Below are positions 11,652 through 64,000 of a DNA stretch of 64,000 bases, one piece after another (position 1 is the stretch's first letter; every line of letters begins with the position of its first letter). Position numbers and translations under genes: made by a program. The stretch covers positions 1-64,000 of the forward strand of contig CAJQRD010000017.1 of assembly GCA_905480605.1 (NCBI GenBank), in the 5' to 3' direction. A model generated the notes under the pieces. That model was not told the DNA's origin, did no database searches, and worked only from the letters and a program-made list of their open reading frames with translations. The stretch comes from an uncultured Saprospiraceae bacterium (GTDB lineage Bacteria; Bacteroidota; Bacteroidia; Chitinophagales; Saprospiraceae).

Positions 11652-14600
11652 TTATTTTTGGATCATAATCTTTTTCGACACTTTATCTCCATTGTTATTT
11701 TCAACAGAAATTAAGTACATACCCGAATTGAGTGTAGATACGTTAATCTTATTCTTATTCTGAATGTCTTTATTTTCAATGGCTATTACTGCCATACCTT
11801 GGTTGTTATAAATAGTTACAGCAGTAATATTATCTATATATTCTAAATTAATATTGATATAATCAATAGCCGGATTAGGATATACTTCAACATCAAAAGT
11901 TGAATTGTTTTCTTGTAAATGAACTGGTGATGATCCTGCAGACCTAGAATTGATAACTTCATTTGATATTATTGTTCCTGTTCCCCAAATTGATAAACAA
12001 TAATCTTCAGTTTCCCCATATTGGTAATTATCGCAAGGTCCAGTGGCATATGAGCCCGGTTTCATAATAATCCTCATTCTTGTTTCTCCTGGAGTTAAAA
12101 TTTGAGGCATTACAATAGTACCTGACAATGTGCTTGTTCCACATCCATAAGCAACGTATTCATCATCATCTTCAAAATCTCCGTCTTGATTAAAATCAAT
12201 CCAAACTTTCCAGTATACTTTGTCATCTGGTTGACCTTCATATCCAGGATCCAGTTGTAAAGCGTATGAAATATTTTGATCTACATTGTAGCATTTATAA
12301 GTAAAGTCACCGTAACCTCCATTATCACCACTTGGGTTATTTAGAGACCCTAGAACAACAGAATCAATATAATAATTTAATGAAATCACTCCTGATGAAG
12401 TACAATATGTTTTATTCGTAGGAATAGATTCTACATTGATATCGAAAGAACAAGTTTCTGTGTTACCGCATCCGTCAGTCGCTGCATAAGTTACTGTATG
12501 ATAAGAGCCTGGCAGTAATAAACTACCTGATGTTGGTCCTGCTGTTTGAGTAACATTTAAACAACCAGGTAATTCCATGATGTATTCTAAATTATAAGTA
12601 TTGTACTGATCATTCCATTGTCCGTTGTTTAATAACTCAACAAAATCTTGATTATTGTTGTAATTGTTGGGCTGACCTGGATACCAGTTTGTGTAATTTA
12701 AATCATCACCATTAACCCATTCGAAATTGCCTTCTGTATCATTGTCACTAAGTCCGATCCAAGCAGATTGTGTGTTCAATAAATTGGCTAAGAATGCATT
12801 TTCATATTCATCATTGATTACGGCTAAGTAACCATCATTGATCTCACAATTCTGTTTTGCACTTTCCCAGTTGTCTGCTTGAGTTGAACAATAATAATAA
12901 TGTCCTCCAAACGTACCCATGTAGACAAAGTTAGGTATAGCACCTCCCGCAGTATCGTTACAGTTATTGCAACATGTAAAAACGTTAGGATCTTCCCAGT
13001 CCACTGTAATACCGTTAGAGTTTGCAGGTGCTGAAACACTTATATCACTTGGGCACTCAATGATTAATCCACCATCAACGATGATATCAAAACTACAAGA
13101 AGAATTTGCACCACATGCATCACTCAAAGCATATGTAACAGTATATGTTCCTCCAGTTAAAAAGCTTCCAGGTTCAGGGCCTCCGGTTTGTTGTATATAA
13201 GTACACGGAACTTCCATGATAAATTCTAATGCATAGTGATTGTATTGGTCATTCCACAAACCACTGTTTAACATTTCAACATAATCTTGGTTATTGTTGT
13301 AATTATTAGGCTGATTTATATACCAATTTGTATAATCCAATGGATCTCCATTGTCCCAAACAAAATCACCTTCATTTGCAGCATCCGATAATCCAATCCA
13401 TGCTGATTGAAGTGTAAGAATATCTGCCAAGAACTGATTCTCTGCATCATCATTTATACTAGCTAGGTAACCACCATTGTTGTTACATATCTGTTGCGCT
13501 TGAGGCCAAGTTGCTTGACCCGTTGAACAGTAATATTGATTGCCATTAAATGTTCCCATGTATACAAAACCTGCAATTGTATTTGTTGAGTTGCAATTAC
13601 CACAAGTACCTTCATATTCAGGAGCGGTCCAATTTGCTATAGCACCACCGGTTGAATCACAAGTCAAATAAATATCACTAGGACAAGTAATCGTTGCTAA
13701 ATTGTCATAGAGTACTGTTACGTTAAAATTGCAGTAATTAACATTCCCACAATTATCAATTGCGGTATAGACCACGTTTGTTGTCCCAACAGGGAAATAA
13801 TTGCCTGGTTGGTGTGTGCTTGTTACTGATGGTATTGAACAAAAATCACTGACAATTGGAGCATTCCAATTTACTATTGTTGTATTGTTATCTACTATGA
13901 TATCATTAGGACAATTTGTAAAAGTTGGTGATATAACATCCTTTGCATTTATAATCTGAACACAACTAGAGGTCAGATTACTTCCTGAATTGTATGATGC
14001 AGTCCATGTTCTATTAATTACTTTTTGTCCATGACAAGGGCCAGTTGCAGTGATTATATCTTGATAATTAACAACAGGTGTAGGACAATTGCTTCCTGCA
14101 TATGCAGTGGCCCATCCTAAGATTGAGGCACTGCTGCTTGATCCGGGGCAGATTACTTTATCTGAAGGGCAAGTAATGCTTGGTGCTGAATTACAAGCGT
14201 TGTTTTGAACTGTAATATTAAAACTGCAATAGTTTAAATTGCCACAATTATCGATAGCAGTATAAGTTACTGTAGTTGTACCAACTGGGAAATATTGCCC
14301 TGACTGATGAGTACTTGTAACTGAAGGTATACTGCAAAAGTCCGTAACTACAGGTGTCGACCAATTGACTACAGTCATGTTGTCATATACTATAATATCA
14401 CTGGGACAATTTGTAAATGTAGGAGACAATTCGTCTTTGGCTGCTATTACTTGAATGCAACTTGAAGTTAAATTACTCCCTGAGTTATATGAAGCCGTCC
14501 ATATTCTGTTAATTATTTTTTCTCCTGCACAAGGACCATTTGATGTTATAACATCTTGATAATTAACAACTGGAGTTGGACAATTTATACCTGCATAAGC

Positions 14601-57979: not shown

Positions 57980-59089
57980 CTAAATCAAACTAAGCAAGAA
58001 ACCTGCTAAGGCACCACCAGCGATAATATAGAGTGTATTAACTTTTTTCCAAGAGAAGAAAACAAAGCATGATGCGATAGCGATCAAAGCTGTGCGCCAA
58101 TCAATTATTATACTTTGTGCCATTTTGAAAGTAACGACGACCATTACTGCAACTGCAGCAACATTTACAGCAGAAAGAAAAGCTTTAAGAATCTTGGAAG
58201 ACTTCATTTTCTTTAAGAATCTGTGTAATAATAACACATAGAAAAAAGACGGAATAAATATTCCTAAAGTCGCAAGCCCAGCGCCTGGGAAGCCACCTAA
58301 TTTATAACCAATAAATGTAGCTGTAGACAAAACAGGTCCTGGCGTCATTTGCCCAACGGCAATAGCTTCAACCAAGTCTGGTCTAGTTAACCAACCTACA
58401 TTCGAAACCAACTCTCCATCCAAGTAAGCAAATAGTACATAGCCACTTCCAAATAGCACCAAACCAACTTTGAAAAATATAAGAAATAACTTTAAGTGTG
58501 TGTAACTCACGTTTGCCATCAAAAGTAATGGTAAGAAAAATGAGTTAATTGTACGGTTTTGAATAAATGAGTGTATAATTAATCCTAGAAACCCAACGAT
58601 GAGAATACAGAAAATCTCATTCAAACCTAGAAGGTTCATAACGATTGTCAGTAGTCCAAAAGCTAGTAATAATTTTGTTTTAACAGCTTTTTTACCAAGC
58701 TTAATTATTGCACCAATAATAAATGAGATAACGGCTGCTTTGATACCGTCAAGTATTGGAGTCATCCAAGCCAACTCACTTGATTTCTCAAAGAAGATAG
58801 CGACTAAAAGTGTTAGCGAAGCAGCTGGAATAATAAAACTCATTCCTCCAACGAAAAGACCTGCAACTCCTGCTCGATGATAACCACAATGCATGGTCAT
58901 TTCAGTAGAGTTTGGTCCAGGAATTAAATTGGTAGCGCCCATGTAGTCAAGAAATTCTTCTGTTGACAACCATTTCTTGTCTTCAACCAAATCACGTTCC
59001 ATCATGGCTACATGGGCAGCTGGTCCACCAAAAGCAACAAACCCCAGTTTAAAAAAATATAGAAATACCTCCTTAAGTTTATCTGACAT
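57980..59089 (-). CDS. chrA: Chromate transporter family protein (ChrA-like)
   Basis: A 369-residue inner-membrane protein with two CHR halves. The first half starts FFKLGFVAFGGPAAHVAMME with NLIPGPNSTEM. The second half has FFKVGLVLFGSGYVL and AIAVGQMTPGPVLS. Known family members export chromate or take up sulphate-like anions. It is 18 nt after the Na/Pi gene and may be in the same operon. Confidence 0.92.
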   Translation of the reverse strand: MSDKLKEVFLYFFKLGFVAFGGPAAHVAMMERDLVEDKKWLSTEEFLDYMGATNLIPGPNSTEMTMHCGYHRAGVAGLFVGGMSFIIPAASLTLLVAIFFEKSSELAWMTPILDGIKAAVISFIIGAIIKLGKKAVKTKLLLAFGLLTIVMNLLGLNEIFCILIVGFLGLIIHSFIQNRTINSFFLPLLLMANVSYTHLKLFLIFFKVGLVLFGSGYVLFAYLDGELVSNVGWLTRPDLVEAIAVGQMTPGPVLSTATFIGYKLGGFPGAGLATLGIFIPSFFYVLLLHRFLKKMKSSKILKAFLSAVNVAAVAVMVVVTFKMAQSIIIDWRTALIAIASCFVFFSWKKVNTLYIIAGGALAGFLLSLI

Positions 59090-59107: not shown

Positions 59108-60823
59108 TTATATTTCTCCTACAATTGCTTCAGAAACATTAATTATATGATCTCCAATTTTTTCTAAAGAGGAGAAGATATTATTATAAACCATTGCTGA
59201 ATTTATATTGTAATCTTTCTTTCCAAGATTGTTTAGATTTTCTTTTCTCAATTTATTTCTGAATCTATTGATGTCTGTTTCAATATCGTTGGCTTTGTTA
59301 ATAGAAACATCATCATAACTCGGCGTTTCAAGATTCTCTTTCATAGTCGCAAATGCAGAATCAACGATATCCATATATTCATTTAAGTTTTTACGTTGCA
59401 TTTCGTTAAAGTAAAAGTTACTTTCATTTTTGCGCTCGATGGTTTTTGATATTTGATAATAAACATCTCCCATTCTTTCAAGGTCATTCGTGATATTTAA
59501 GATACTGCGCAATCTGATGCTAGTTCTAGACGTGATTTCTTCATTGCTCAAAGCCGTTATATACTCTGTAACTTCTTTTTCCATCTCGTCAGTAATGTTT
59601 TCATACTTAGCCATTTTCTTGTACATTTCCTCTCTTTCTTTTGGTTCAGTGCTATTGACAAGAGTTCTCATGAAACCAGACATTCGGGTTACGACTTCAC
59701 CAAAATGTGCTGTTTCTTTTTGTAATTCAACTGTTGCCAATTCTGGAGTTCTACTTCCACCTTTGATGAAGGTCAATCTGATATCTTCATCATCTTCATT
59801 TTTAGATTTAACAGACCAAATGGCTGCTTTTACCAAGTATGGAACAAATGGTAACATCAGCAATACATTAAGAAGATTAAAAAATGTATGGAATGCAGCA
59901 AGTTTATATGTATTTAAAGTGTTTATAGTATCTAAGTTCTCTTTGGTTTTTACACCTTGTTCAAATACATCAGAAAAGCTTTCAACAAATCCACCAAGCC
60001 ACCCCATAACAACAGGCAGTAAAATTATCATCCAAGTCACACCAATAATATTAAACATTGAGTGAATTCTTGCAGATCTTTTTGCGTGAACATTTCCAAC
60101 CATAGAAGCGATTTCAGCGGTAATAGTTGTTCCAATATTTTCACCAAGAATCATTGCAGCTGCGACATCCAATGGCAACCAACCTGTGTATACCAAGGTT
60201 AAAGTAATGGCCATGGCAGCGCTTGATGACTGTACAACTACAGTTATCAATGCTCCAATGAAAACAAAGAATACTCTTGATAAGAAACCATAATCTGCAA
60301 AATTCTGGATCCAAGCCAATACTTCTGGATTGCCTTTGATATCAGGAACAGCTCCTTTTAAATAACTTAATCCTAAGAATAAAATGGCAAAACCAATTAA
60401 AAATTCACCCCAGTATTTGAATTTTCCTTTTTTAGAAAATAACATAGGTACTGCGACGGCAAAAAGGGGTATTGATAATACATGTAATTTTACCTTAAAA
60501 CCTAAAAAAGAAACGATCCAGCCTGTAATAGTTGTACCAATATTGGCACCCATCATTACACCTGCCGATTCTACCAATGACAATAAACCTGCATTTACAA
60601 AACTTACTGTCATTACTGTTGTAGCTGATGAAGACTGAACCAATGCTGTTGTTAAAAAACCAGTGAAGACACCCAAGTATCTATTTTTGGTCATTGTTCT
60701 AAGTATCTTTCTCAATTGAGAACCAGCAGCTCGCTGAATACCGTCACTCATCATTTTCATACCATAGACAAAAAATGCAAGTGCTCCTAAGATCTGAATT
60801 ACATCACCGAATCCGAAATCCAT
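59108..60823 (-). CDS. Na+/phosphate symporter with C-terminal PhoU-like domain
   Basis: A 571-residue inner-membrane protein. The NptA-type repeats are visible as TALVQSSSATTVM and VVVQSSSAAMAI. The final roughly 200 residues are a PhoU-like helical domain. It imports phosphate with sodium. It lies 37 nt after the porin gene in one operon. Confidence 0.94.
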   Translation of the reverse strand: MDFGFGDVIQILGALAFFVYGMKMMSDGIQRAAGSQLRKILRTMTKNRYLGVFTGFLTTALVQSSSATTVMTVSFVNAGLLSLVESAGVMMGANIGTTITGWIVSFLGFKVKLHVLSIPLFAVAVPMLFSKKGKFKYWGEFLIGFAILFLGLSYLKGAVPDIKGNPEVLAWIQNFADYGFLSRVFFVFIGALITVVVQSSSAAMAITLTLVYTGWLPLDVAAAMILGENIGTTITAEIASMVGNVHAKRSARIHSMFNIIGVTWMIILLPVVMGWLGGFVESFSDVFEQGVKTKENLDTINTLNTYKLAAFHTFFNLLNVLLMLPFVPYLVKAAIWSVKSKNEDDEDIRLTFIKGGSRTPELATVELQKETAHFGEVVTRMSGFMRTLVNSTEPKEREEMYKKMAKYENITDEMEKEVTEYITALSNEEITSRTSIRLRSILNITNDLERMGDVYYQISKTIERKNESNFYFNEMQRKNLNEYMDIVDSAFATMKENLETPSYDDVSINKANDIETDINRFRNKLRKENLNNLGKKDYNINSAMVYNNIFSSLEKIGDHIINVSEAIVGEI

Positions 60824-60860: not shown

Positions 60861-62060
60861 TTAAAAGTGGAACTCAACTTGAGTTCTCCAAATGAATCTG
60901 TTGTCACTGTTTTCAAATTCACGAATGGTAAAATCATTCTGAATTTTCAATTTGTGACCTACTATATATTTTGAAAAACCAAGCGTGTATTGGTTTTCGT
61001 CCGAAGATACACTTTCATCTGGTTTTATTGTGGTGTATCTTGCGGCTATTTCCCAGTTTTTACCTATTAAATATCCAGCTTGCACGTTTGCGCCATATCC
61101 TGTATAGTAAGTTCCGATTACATTTCCGTTATTGTCTAGTACATCTGGTAAATCATCAGAAGTTTTTCTTTGAGCGTATTCTGCCATTAATGAAAACCCA
61201 TTATGTTTATACATCAAATCTGCAAAGAATACATTTAAGTCTTTTCCAAAGTACTCTCCATTTTCATCTTGAATGAAATTGCCTAATTGACCTCTTTCTC
61301 TAACAGCACTTTTGTTTAAGTTGTAGGCAAATGCTACTGCAAGTTTTGGTTTTTGTTCTTTTTTTAGATCAGCTCCTACATAATCTCCTTTGGATTGAAA
61401 TTTACCAAATGGTAAGAATTCCAAGTGGAAAGTGTAGCTAAATCCTCCAAGATATCCTTCCGTTACATTTCTTCCCTCACCTTGACTTAAGGCAAATCTT
61501 TCTTTTACTATAAATGTTTCACCCAATTTGAAATGGTGTAATAAATCTATACTAAAATCTCTATCAATATTGAATCGAGAATTTAATCTTGAGCGATCAA
61601 CCAATTGTAGATTAGCTGAAGAAATTACCCGCTCTCTATTTCCTGGTAATTTACCTTGACCAAACCGAACTGAGAAGTTTTTGTAAAAGTTATACGTTAC
61701 ATAAGCATCTAAAACAAGATTGGCAGTATTCCTAAATTCTGGTCTTTGACCACCATTTAGATCTCTATTAGATAACGCCAACTCAAATTTGTACTGGAAT
61801 TTGGGATTTAAGGCCCACCCATTGATTTTGATTCTTGACCTTCGGGTAAATAAACTCCCATTATAGTCTGTAAATGAACCATCTTGCATTTGCCATTCTC
61901 CAGAGTACAAACTTTGAAACCTAAATCCAAGTTTCATGTAATATGAAGAATCTTTGCCCATTAATTGTAGGCCTTTTCCAAATGATGTAGGAATAATTTG
62001 AGCTTGTACGCTCGAAAATAGAGCTGATATTACTATCAAGCAGGTTATAATGTTTCGCAT
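60861..62060 (-). CDS. OprP/OprO-type phosphate-selective porin
   Basis: A 399-residue outer-membrane beta barrel with signal peptide. The sequence has the porin O/P pattern, beginning SFGKGLQLMGKDSSYYMKLGFRF and ending in Phe (TQVEFHF). It is first in the operon with the Na/Pi symporter, supporting a phosphate role. Start ATG at 62060. Confidence 0.9.
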   Translation of the reverse strand: MRNIITCLIVISALFSSVQAQIIPTSFGKGLQLMGKDSSYYMKLGFRFQSLYSGEWQMQDGSFTDYNGSLFTRRSRIKINGWALNPKFQYKFELALSNRDLNGGQRPEFRNTANLVLDAYVTYNFYKNFSVRFGQGKLPGNRERVISSANLQLVDRSRLNSRFNIDRDFSIDLLHHFKLGETFIVKERFALSQGEGRNVTEGYLGGFSYTFHLEFLPFGKFQSKGDYVGADLKKEQKPKLAVAFAYNLNKSAVRERGQLGNFIQDENGEYFGKDLNVFFADLMYKHNGFSLMAEYAQRKTSDDLPDVLDNNGNVIGTYYTGYGANVQAGYLIGKNWEIAARYTTIKPDESVSSDENQYTLGFSKYIVGHKLKIQNDFTIREFENSDNRFIWRTQVEFHF

Positions 62061-62094
62061 CGGGACAATTTGATACTGTATATAAAATATGCCA

Positions 62095-62102
62095 CAAAAT
62101 TA
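62095..62102 (-). promoter_or_regulatory. -7 promoter element of the porin operon
   Basis: On the minus strand TAATTTTG, 34 nt before the porin ATG. The direct repeat of the candidate Pho box is 9 bp upstream of it. Confidence 0.55.
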
Positions 62103-62111
62103 TCCCTTCAA

Positions 62112-62129
62112 TGTTAACTCAATGTTAAC
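62112..62129 (-). promoter_or_regulatory. Candidate Pho box of the porin operon
   Basis: Two copies of GTTAACA with a 4-bp spacer (TTGA) on the minus strand, an 11-bp period. The whole 11-mer GTTAACATTGA occurs twice in succession. This is the geometry of PhoB half-sites. The binding protein is inferred. Confidence 0.55.
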
Positions 62130-62322
62130 TATGCGCAACTAAGGTAAATTGATTGTTAAATGTGATTCAAAGAACATTTTAGTGATGCTGGACGATTATA
62201 ATATCACTTAAAAAAAGAGGATCAAGCTTGCATCATAAATTGTCCCGAAATATAACATTTTGCTTGACCCTCCAATTGAATCACAAAGCAAAGACTCTTT
62301 TGTTATTCAAAGGTTTACACAA

Positions 62323-62340
62323 TGTTAATTCTGTGTTACT
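62323..62340 (+). promoter_or_regulatory. Candidate Pho box 2, lipoprotein side
   Basis: TGTTAAT and TGTTACT with a 4-bp spacer (TCTG). The half-sites are similar to those of the porin side and lie upstream of the lipoprotein gene. Confidence 0.45.
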
Positions 62341-62363
62341 TAAACTAGTCGGTAATTATCTAA

Positions 62364-62381
62364 TGTTACCTGAATGTTACC
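62364..62381 (+). promoter_or_regulatory. Candidate Pho box 3, lipoprotein side
   Basis: TGTTACC repeated with a 4-bp spacer (TGAA). An additional TGTTAAC stands at 62395-62401, two bases out of the 11-bp phase. Confidence 0.5.
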
Positions 62382-62444
62382 TAAAGCATTCACTTGTTAA
62401 CAGTTCATTAAAGAGCAATTAATAGACTGGTTATACTAAGCCTT

Positions 62445-62452
62445 TATGTTTG
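62445..62452 (+). promoter_or_regulatory. -7 promoter element of the surface lipoprotein gene
   Basis: TATGTTTG matches TAnnTTTG, 50 nt before the first start codon. No TTG at the -33 distance, in line with an activated promoter. Confidence 0.5.
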
Positions 62453-62502
62453 CATCGAAATTGTATAAAACCAGGTTAGACTTTTAAATAACCAAATATT
62501 AA

Positions 62503-63834
62503 ATGTTAAAAATGAAAAAACTTAATTTATTAATTCCCGTTTTATTTTCACTTTTTATCATCTCTTGTAGTGATGATTGTGAAACAGTATGTAATCAAGG
62601 TGAAGTATTGACAAATGATTGTGAGTGTTTAGCAGTTGATCCTTGTGTAGGAGTAACTTGTGACGCTGGTGAAATTCTAACAGCTGACTGTGATTGTGTT
62701 GACAGTGCTGCTAATCTTCCTGTAATTGTATCTGGTGAATTAAACGCAAATGCAACATGGACTTCTGATAAAATATATGAATTAGCTAACAAAGTAGTGG
62801 TAAGCTCTGGCGTAACCTTAACAATTGAACCAGGTACGATTATTAAAGGTAGAGAAGGATCAGGTTCTTCAGCTACAGCTTTAGTTGTTGCAAAAGGAGG
62901 GAAAATAGAAGCTTGTGGTACTGCTGCAAAGCCAATAATATTCACTTCAACTTTGGATAATATTGCAGTTGGACAAACTGCAGGTACAAATTTAAATGAT
63001 ACACAAGTTGGTCTTTGGGGTGGATTAATCATTCTAGGAAATGCGCCTTGTTCTTTTGAAGGTGATCCTAGTGAATTACAAATTGAAGGAATTCCGGCTG
63101 ATGATGCATTTGGATTGTATGGAGGAGATGATCCAGATGATAATTCAGGAAGTTTATGCTATATATCTGTAAGACACGGAGGTGCATTGATTGGATCTGA
63201 TAATGAAATTAATGGAATTACTTTAGGTGGAGTAGGAAGAGGAACAACAATCAACAATGTTGAAGTAGTTGCAAACAAAGATGATGGCATCGAGTTCTTT
63301 GGTGGAACAGTAAATGTTACCAATGCTATTGTTTGGTCTCAAGGAGATGATGCTTTTGATGTAGATCAAGCTTACTCAGGTACACTTGATAATTATGTAT
63401 CAATTGCAGGACCTGATTCCGATCACAGTTTAGAAATTGATGGACCAGAAGGTACAGCTACAGGGAGATTTACTTTTACAAATGGAACACATAAAGGATT
63501 TGCATCTGAATTTGCAGATTTTAGAAAGTCAGCAATGGGTACCGTATCTAATACATACTTCTTTGGCTTTCCTGAAGATGCAGATTTTGAAATAGATGAT
63601 GATGGCAGTTCAATGAATGTGGTTAATGGAATTTTAGAATTTGCTAACCTTGAATTTAATACAACTAAGTCGATAGCTGAAATTTGTTTGGACAAAGCTC
63701 CTGCAGGAGATCAAGCAGCTTTTACTATATACATGGAGCAAAATGCATCAGTAGTTTCAACACCAACCGTAGGTGCTGATACTTCTGTTTTCGGCTGGAC
63801 TTATACGGCTCAAAAAAACGCTTTAAACTTTTAA
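62503..63834 (+). CDS. Surface lipoprotein with EGF-like start and beta-helix
   Basis: A 443-residue lipoprotein with lipobox IISC. After the lipid site come two short Cys-rich repeats (CNQGEVLTNDCECL and CDAGEILTADCDCV), then a right-handed beta-helix-like region with GTIIKGREGSG. Similar proteins occur beside TonB-dependent receptors, often at phosphate-responsive loci. It is immediately followed by such a receptor. Start either ATG at 62503 or at 62512. Confidence 0.8.
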   Translation: MLKMKKLNLLIPVLFSLFIISCSDDCETVCNQGEVLTNDCECLAVDPCVGVTCDAGEILTADCDCVDSAANLPVIVSGELNANATWTSDKIYELANKVVVSSGVTLTIEPGTIIKGREGSGSSATALVVAKGGKIEACGTAAKPIIFTSTLDNIAVGQTAGTNLNDTQVGLWGGLIILGNAPCSFEGDPSELQIEGIPADDAFGLYGGDDPDDNSGSLCYISVRHGGALIGSDNEINGITLGGVGRGTTINNVEVVANKDDGIEFFGGTVNVTNAIVWSQGDDAFDVDQAYSGTLDNYVSIAGPDSDHSLEIDGPEGTATGRFTFTNGTHKGFASEFADFRKSAMGTVSNTYFFGFPEDADFEIDDDGSSMNVVNGILEFANLEFNTTKSIAEICLDKAPAGDQAAFTIYMEQNASVVSTPTVGADTSVFGWTYTAQKNALNF

Positions 63835-63850
63835 TAAAAAATAAACCAGT

Positions 63851-63884
63851 ACCTGTTGTATTTTAATACAGCAGGTATATTTTT
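63851..63884 (+). terminator. Hairpin with T-run between the lipoprotein and receptor genes
   Basis: ACCTGTTGTATT and AATACAGCAGGT pair with one wobble around a TT loop, then T residues. It may end or lessen transcription into the next gene. Confidence 0.7.
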
Positions 63885-63897
63885 TAAAAATGAAAAA

Positions 63898-64000
63898 ATG
63901 GAAAAATTGCAAAAAAATATCTTAATTCTTGTTGTTCTTTTAATTCAGACAACATTTATATTGTCTCAATCTGGAACTGTCAGAGGTCAATTAATTGATG
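63898..64000 (+). CDS. Start of a TonB-dependent receptor (partial)
   Basis: From the ATG at 63898 the frame reads a signal peptide (LILVVLLIQTTFILSQ) and SGTVRGQLID, the start of the carboxypeptidase-regulatory-like plug domain of SusC/TonB-type receptors. The gene continues past the right edge. Confidence 0.75.
   Translation, partial: MEKLQKNILILVVLLIQTTFILSQSGTVRGQLID

Follow-up and report, generated by a model that had tools for sequence, protein, structure and literature searches.

Tandem repeats with an 11-bp period, very probably a Pho box, between the divergent genes of a phosphate locus in an uncultured Saprospiraceae bacterium

What controls a locus in which genes for a predicted phosphate porin and for a TonB receptor are transcribed away from each other? 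In the window analyzed here (the whole stretch of 64,000 nucleotides, positions 1 to 64,000 of contig CAJQRD010000017.1 from an uncultured Saprospiraceae bacterium), genes for an OprP-like porin and a sodium/phosphate (Na/Pi) cotransporter diverge from genes for a surface lipoprotein and a TonB-dependent receptor (Table 1). A sequence-only reading had noted three pairs of 7-bp repeats with 4-bp spacers between these genes, and it proposed a PhoB-like operator: a Bacteroidota Pho box based on TGTTA. Our analysis suggests that the repeats are very probably a Pho box at which a PhoB-type regulator acts, because of the comparison with relatives, the TTTAACA core recognized by PhoP of Riemerella anatipestifer (PMC9603813), and the induction of Flavobacterium relatives at low phosphate (PMC8115612). 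A Pho box is an ordinary kind of element. We did not find its promoter grammar in Bacteroidota described in the literature searched, where the closest items were the Riemerella core (PMC9603813) and the boxes of plcP clusters (PMC4796936).

The repeat pairs are where the sequence-only reading had placed them. As it had also noted, the porin pair is an 11-mer repeated close to the core promoter: on the minus strand it is GTTAACATTGA twice, with 9 bp from the end of the second 7-mer (GTTAACA) to the -7 element TAATTTTG (62102-62095). Because TTAA is a palindrome, the orientation of a unit must come from its flanking bases. Read as TTAACATT, the porin pair is directed toward the porin, and the pairs at 62323 and 62364 are directed away from the lipoprotein gene. 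A Bacteroidota Pho box is supported, but TGTTA is the reverse reading of its unit. Similarly, both of the pairs listed on the lipoprotein side exist, but the lipoprotein's own proximal array had been missed. That array, at 62397-62452, reads TTAACAGTTCA TTAAAGAGCAA TTAATAGACTG GTTATACTAAGCCTT TATGTTTG; it is weaker, and its fourth unit (GTTATACT) is poor, but it is phased.

The phase emerged from promoters in the family Saprospiraceae. For the lipoprotein, we took the best 30 of 79 loci, of which 29 had a start codon; 19 had a perfect TAnnTTTG and served as anchors. For the porin, we began with 27 genomes, left out three partial or weak matches and two without a start, and read 22, which yielded 13 anchors. 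(Both sets of anchors include the window's own promoter.) TTAA lies 26, 37, and 48 bp before TAnnTTTG in 11, 10, and 12 of the 19 lipoprotein promoters, respectively, and 15 bp before it in two. In the 13 porin promoters, it lies at 15 bp in six and at 26 bp in five, with two more at 16, two at 27, and three at 48. Over all 32 anchors, a single phase of 11 holds 49 of the 69 TTAA words; in 2,000 circular shifts, the mean maximum was 10.6 and the largest was 21. The phase was noticed by eye prior to this test, and each null was scored at its best phase.

Base counts at -15, -26, -37, and -48 spell TTAAYATT, which resembles TTAACATT, and at -59 none of this is left. Thus, the unit is TTAACATTnnn, repeated head to tail with an 11-bp period and starting 15, 26, 37, or 48 bp before the Bacteroidota -7 element TAnnTTTG. 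This grammar is common to porin and lipoprotein promoters, including those of orthologues in other genera. Since the porin and lipoprotein genes are unrelated, a shared ancestry of their sequences does not account for it.

Outside the family, the grammar is looser. Of 30 loci from across the phylum, we read 24, leaving out the window's own and L124, L135, L145, L146, and L148. Eleven of the 24 form a held-out set of orthologue promoters that were chosen regardless of motif, with L122 and 12 more distant paralogues excluded. These 11 outscore 263 control regions (area under the curve [AUC] of 0.94, P = 4.7e-7), and the 13 excluded rows score slightly above the controls (AUC of 0.64, P = 0.04). 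Seven hand-picked promoters, which were added after their boxes had been seen (the first-gene regions L153 and L155-L158 and Porphyromonas L215 and L216), also reach an AUC of 0.94. A larger set of 48 FI-type first genes, many of them close kin, outscores the controls more weakly (AUC of 0.75). Among the 17 stretches from which the five first-gene regions came, L149-L152 and L154 were unused, and L159-L165 duplicate genes already read. Our first control set of 174 regions held lipoprotein genes and motif-picked loci, so it was replaced by 265 regions; in an earlier scoring against these, 18 outside promoters gave P = 4.9e-10. Two of the 265 were genes of the cluster itself (from L156), and their removal left 263. 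We had inspected the outside promoters by eye prior to scoring, so this test was not blind.

The comparison with controls also bears on whether a specific regulator is needed. The units are AT-rich and promoter-phased, as would be expected of a UP-element-like promoter feature of an AT-rich clade, and high-scoring arrays also precede genes without a known phosphate role, such as those of the top controls and a MarC-family gene. However, the period is specific, the fifth base is most often C at -15, -26, and -48 (37-46%), and most control upstream regions score far lower, so we consider such a feature quite improbable.

We looked for other arrays with a matrix built from 78 units from relatives, with this genome excluded. 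On the 77.9-kb contig, four arrays score at least 15 (at 62299, 67032, 76475, and 73110), and all of them lie within its final 15.6 kb. At six other periods, there was one site in total, and nulls had a mean of 0.27 sites; three sites scoring at least 19 arose in none of 100 nulls. The array at 76475 has units 48, 37, 26, and 15 bp before TAAATTTG (76460-76515). Behind it are a short open reading frame (ORF), a CDP-alcohol phosphatidyltransferase, a GtrA-like protein, and a further ORF (contig positions 75350-76455; L118, 9351-10456), which form a candidate lipid-remodelling member of the regulon. Beyond the window, units also precede the TonB receptor of a phytase operon, at distances of 48, 37, and 26 bp from TATATTTG (69056-69111). 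Because this -7 element lies within the first codons of the longest receptor ORF, translation more likely starts at a later ATG. Finally, an unphased array, ATTACATTAAG TTAACATAAAG ATAACCT, stands upstream of a phoB-like gene on another contig. The proposed PhoB-like operator is strengthened by the 11-bp period phased to the -7 element, by its recurrence at the phoB-like gene and the phytase operon, and by the match to the Riemerella core; the 62323 and 62364 pairs are not in the activating orientation for the lipoprotein.

How far do these arrays resemble a Pho box? Head-to-tail repeats of about seven bases with an 11-bp period are present. A fixed placement relative to the -10 or -7 element is found within the window's family, and a strict -7 requirement gave no signal outside it. 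The repeats lie upstream of phosphate genes and are common to orthologues, though simple patterns are not enriched genome-wide.

Several observations weigh against a Pho box. First, across the 4.51-Mb genome, TGTTA-N6-TGTTA has 22 exact matches, versus 51 for the reversed pattern. Of five simple-pattern counts in this genome, one is above its control (12 vs. 4); further counts were 2 vs. 4, 172 vs. 229, and 10 vs. 15. Apart from the one count, simple patterns are not enriched genome-wide. In a Flavobacterium genome, the strict pattern has 12 matches, versus 17 in the control (the 12 include a DUF47-like gene, an alkaline phosphatase, and a TonB receptor, as named by reading the sequences). Second, among the 18 outside promoters, no signal remained once a perfect TAnnTTTG in phase was demanded (P = 0.66); 13 of these regions lack a usable perfect TAnnTTTG. 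We therefore regard the grammar as well established within the window's family and less strict outside it. Third, a lone array is not significant: the best score on the contig is 20.4, and 30 nulls had a mean of 14.7 and a maximum of 23.5, so a single site is not decisive. Of the four arrays on the contig, only the one at 76475 has a phased -7 element with genes behind it. By eye, the arrays at 62299 and 67032 are directed away from the nearest downstream start, and the one at 73110 is upstream of an ORF without a known family. Upstream of the phoB-like gene, no perfect -7 element stands in phase with the array.

Could the repeats be chance products of AT-rich intergenic DNA? Both the simple-pattern counts, at or below control genome-wide, and the single array scores, inside the range of null maxima, are what chance would give. 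But chance would hardly produce a phase that is common to promoters of many genera, or three strong arrays (none in 100 nulls), or outside orthologue promoters that score above controls. Clustering points the same way: TGTTA-N6-TGTTA is an ordinary pattern, yet it occurs three times in the 64-kb window (shuffle mean of 0.42; three reached in 1 of 100 shuffles), and all three are within 270 bp, where 0.0013 would be expected at genome density. We therefore rate chance as very improbable.

In Flavobacterium FI-operon promoters, among the matches listed, the conserved repeats were judged by eye to be about 41 and 52 bp away from the -7 element, which is another phase than in the window. Among the matches listed, the 50 named loci do not include F. 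johnsoniae.

Which regulator would bind the units? The genome encodes six OmpR-type regulators, and one of them (L110, 4723-5406) is followed by a PhoR-like kinase. In two other genomes, a PhoB-like protein is encoded next to the receptor/lipoprotein pair; this regulator is 56% and 53% identical to those proteins, and none of the remaining five exceeds 35%. NF053854 and TIGR02154 are its two best families, though it falls below both PhoB equivalog cutoffs of NCBIfam (208.7 bits vs. 270 for NF053854 and 204.1 vs. 296.2 for TIGR02154), so we call it PhoB-like.

Published work on other Bacteroidota both supports and complicates this assignment. In R. anatipestifer, from the same phylum, the motif obtained for PhoP by DNA affinity purification sequencing has the core TTTAACA, and electrophoretic mobility shift assays found that PhoP binds upstream of its own phoPR operon (PMC9603813). 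The motif is described as resembling the ArcA box, and the protein had 583 peaks upstream of 764 genes, with binding also when unphosphorylated; for its 50 direct targets, the emphasis is on membrane and aerotolerance genes, not on phosphate uptake (PMC9603813). From the number of peaks, the unphosphorylated binding, and the classes of targets, the Riemerella PhoP is not confined to phosphate genes. These results, together with the six OmpR-type regulators of this genome, leave some room for another OmpR-type response regulator (such as an ArcA-like redox regulator) to bind the units here. We think that this is unlikely: the arrays are located at phosphate genes and at the phoB-like gene, and the Riemerella protein was reported by its authors to be up-regulated in phosphate starvation (PMC9603813).

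Expression data are mixed as well. At low phosphate, F. johnsoniae induces FI, FII, and FIII (fold changes of 14.47, 9.91, and 11.56) and the receptors Fjoh_3857 and Fjoh_0545 (12.50 and 8.02; PMC8115612, Table 1), but its OprP (Fjoh_0542) is not induced (fold change of -1.3, false-discovery rate of 0.25; PMC8115612). For Bacteroides fragilis, a PhoB regulon has been published: one porin-O gene was up 3.55-fold in the wild type and down in the phoB mutant, and another, BF2289, was down 3.16-fold in the wild type (PMC3547664). The main text of that study does not contain the words "motif," "consensus," or "direct repeat" (PMC3547664). The porin genes of both species, along with the simple-pattern counts and the failed strict test, call for caution, chiefly about a general control of porins. 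The Riemerella and B. fragilis results lowered our confidence in a Pho box slightly, and we still consider it very probable.

The Bacillus subtilis PhoP box consists of TTAACA-like repeats, with a unit and period nearly as here; it belongs to another phylum and another promoter, and no text stating its consensus was found in the literature searched. The Pho box of Escherichia coli PhoB likewise has seven-base units every 11 bp, head to tail (PMC4415409). Its unit is CTGTCAT, whereas here the unit is TTAACATT and is phased to the Bacteroidota -7 element; also unlike E. coli, lipoprotein promoters have three to four units, some with a reverse pair upstream. The Riemerella PhoP site shares the phylum and the core TTTAACA with the site described here, but the main text of that study does not contain "direct repeat," "11-bp," or "spacer," and we found no -7 phasing there (PMC9603813). 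As described, F. johnsoniae PUSIII and PUSIV resemble our locus in combining an FI/FII lipoprotein with a TonB receptor and a phytase with a TonB receptor, and in their induction at low phosphate; they differ in that the FII pair lies by phoBR, whereas here the pair is divergent from the porin and cotransporter and is followed by the phytase operon (PMC8115612). Caulobacter ElpS and CC0171 are, by description, another parallel: a phosphate-starvation lipoprotein adjoins a TonB receptor, and overexpression increased extracellular phosphatase activity (PMC2996285). Unlike the window's pair, ElpS is tied to a type II secretion system, and CC0171 is constitutive (PMC2996285). Computed Pho boxes were also described for marine plcP clusters, from isolates that include a flavobacterium; we liken them by description (PMC4796936).

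We propose that the intergenic region (62061-62502) is a divergent pair of PhoB-type promoters. When phosphate is scarce, the PhoB-like regulator would be phosphorylated by a PhoR-like kinase, occupy the tandem units over the -33 region, and bring in the housekeeping sigma factor. The output would be the porin and the Na/Pi cotransporter in one direction and the surface lipoprotein and the TonB receptor in the other. If so, the grammar (TTAACATT units every 11 bp, phased with TAnnTTTG) would make phosphate-starvation regulons easier to predict across a phylum that is important in the gut, the sea, and soil. It adds as candidates the receptor/lipoprotein pair, the phytase operon, the CDP-alcohol transferase operon, and perhaps an arsenic operon.

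A more elaborate arrangement can be imagined, and we put it forward as a rather doubtful one. The lipoprotein promoter might be a composite of the forward phased array and the reverse pair near -81, placed back to back, with filaments growing both ways and perhaps bridging to the porin promoter; and the PhoU-like tail of the cotransporter might stand in for a separate PhoU by informing PhoR of phosphate flux. In the 19 anchored lipoprotein promoters, reverse TRTTA has eight counts at -81/-82, out of 30 such words over 125 positions overall. In this 98% complete genome, the only PF01895 (PhoU) matches found were the two stretches of the cotransporter. That the only such domains found lie on a cotransporter behind a putative Pho box is what suggests a role for its tail in reporting flux. 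For the four-unit array at 62299-62340, no TAnnTTTG at the matching phase was seen by eye.

Table 1. Features of the divergent locus and its surroundings (window coordinates)
Feature	Position	Strand	Remarks
Chromate transporter	57980-59089		PF02417; adjoins the phosphate operon
Na/Pi cotransporter, C-terminal PhoU-like domains	59108..60823	-	PF02690 (E = 5.3e-60), PF01895 (E = 5.8e-12)
Outer-membrane porin, Porin_O_P family, OprP/OprO type	60861..62060	-	PF07396 (E = 1.7e-10)
Imperfect inverted repeat, left arm	62049..62071		Reaches the porin start codon; outside the putative Pho box
Porin -7 element TAATTTTG	62095..62102	-
Putative porin Pho box	62107..62129	-	Two TTAACATT units, starting 26 and 15 bp before -7; geometry also in relatives
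Repeat pair TGTTAAC-TCAA-TGTTAAC (porin pair)	62112-62129		Coordinates checked in the sequence
Imperfect inverted repeat, right arm	62237..62259		Same repeat as the left arm
Four-unit array, including the 62323 pair	62299..62340	-	Top four-unit array of the contig, score 20.4
Repeat pair TGTTAAT-TCTG-TGTTACT (second pair)	62323-62340		Coordinates checked in the sequence
Repeat pair TGTTACC-TGAA-TGTTACC (third pair)	62364-62381		Coordinates checked in the sequence
Two-unit pair	62364..62381	-	Starts 81 bp before the lipoprotein -7
Putative Pho box, lipoprotein promoter	62397..62444	+	Units at -48, -37, and -26; a poor one at -15
Lipoprotein -7 element TATGTTTG	62445..62452	+
Surface lipoprotein, beta-helix type, related to Flavobacterium FI-type lipoproteins	62503..63834	+
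TonB-dependent receptor, start	63898..64000 (to contig 66723)	+	PF00593, PF07715, PF13715; ORF listing starts at TTG 63856

By its Porin_O_P domain (41.1 bits for PF07396, cutoff 20.9), the porin is predicted to be of the phosphate-selective OprP/OprO type. The cotransporter gene begins 37 bp behind it on the same strand, and the two probably form one operon. There is no array upstream of the neighboring chromate transporter gene (matrix score of 5.9).

The lipoprotein matched no family in Pfam or NCBIfam. It is 31-36% identical to 24 relatives, FI-type and others, and it can be assigned to the FI/FII type by this relationship to FI-type proteins and by the TonB receptor downstream. Of 100 Saprospiraceae genomes, 79 contain a match to it, and a profile found matches in 206 of 296 genomes from across the phylum. 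Its predicted model is rich in strands (mean predicted local distance difference test score of 68). A fold search with the model gave weak beta-helix or pectate-lyase-like matches (best E = 2.6e-3, none at 0.001), and a profile search of solved structures gave no match. The strand-rich model and the weak pectate lyase matches agree with a published remark on polygalacturonase-like folds (PMC8115612).

Beyond the window, the receptor is followed, in order, by an aspartyl-protease-like gene, a small ORF, a second TonB receptor, and a 3-phytase (PF02333, E = 3.2e-63). It is plausible that the receptor/lipoprotein pair imports phosphate or organophosphate, given the phytase neighbor, the induction of relatives at low phosphate (PMC8115612), and the parallel with Caulobacter ElpS (PMC2996285). 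In two other genomes (L153 and L157), the pair is transcribed divergently from a phoB-like gene, and the ORF behind that gene is presumably phoR; F. johnsoniae PUSIV is described with this arrangement (PMC8115612).

The gap between the first TonB receptor and the aspartyl-protease-like gene contains the strong minus-oriented array at contig positions 67032-67072 (L004, 12033-12073). It is directed at the 3' end of the receptor, and no gene was seen for it.

Two other arrays lie elsewhere in the genome. First, five TTAA-type units with an 11-bp period were seen by eye upstream of an ArsR-type operon (L111, 3640-5889; G000:C3), and they adjoin a likely ArsR dyad. The operon encodes an ArsR-type regulator, an unassigned ORF, a low-scoring ArsC-like ORF (34 bits, cutoff 215), and an aquaporin; joint control by phosphate and arsenic is possible. 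Second, TTAACATTAATTTAATATTGAG is upstream of the MarC-family gene (L113, 2573-3133; G000:C45), which is divergent from an Lrp-like ORF (named by eye).

The imperfect inverted repeat, whose core is GGACAATT, flanks the porin promoter. Both arms are present in 4 of the 22 porin upstream regions (L036, L040, L041, and L045), and the repeat may serve as another operator or form a hairpin when transcripts read through. GGACAATT also occurs at regular distances in window positions 13909-14585 (at 13909, 14083, 14404, and 14578), and the window holds 12 matches to it, versus 3.6 expected.

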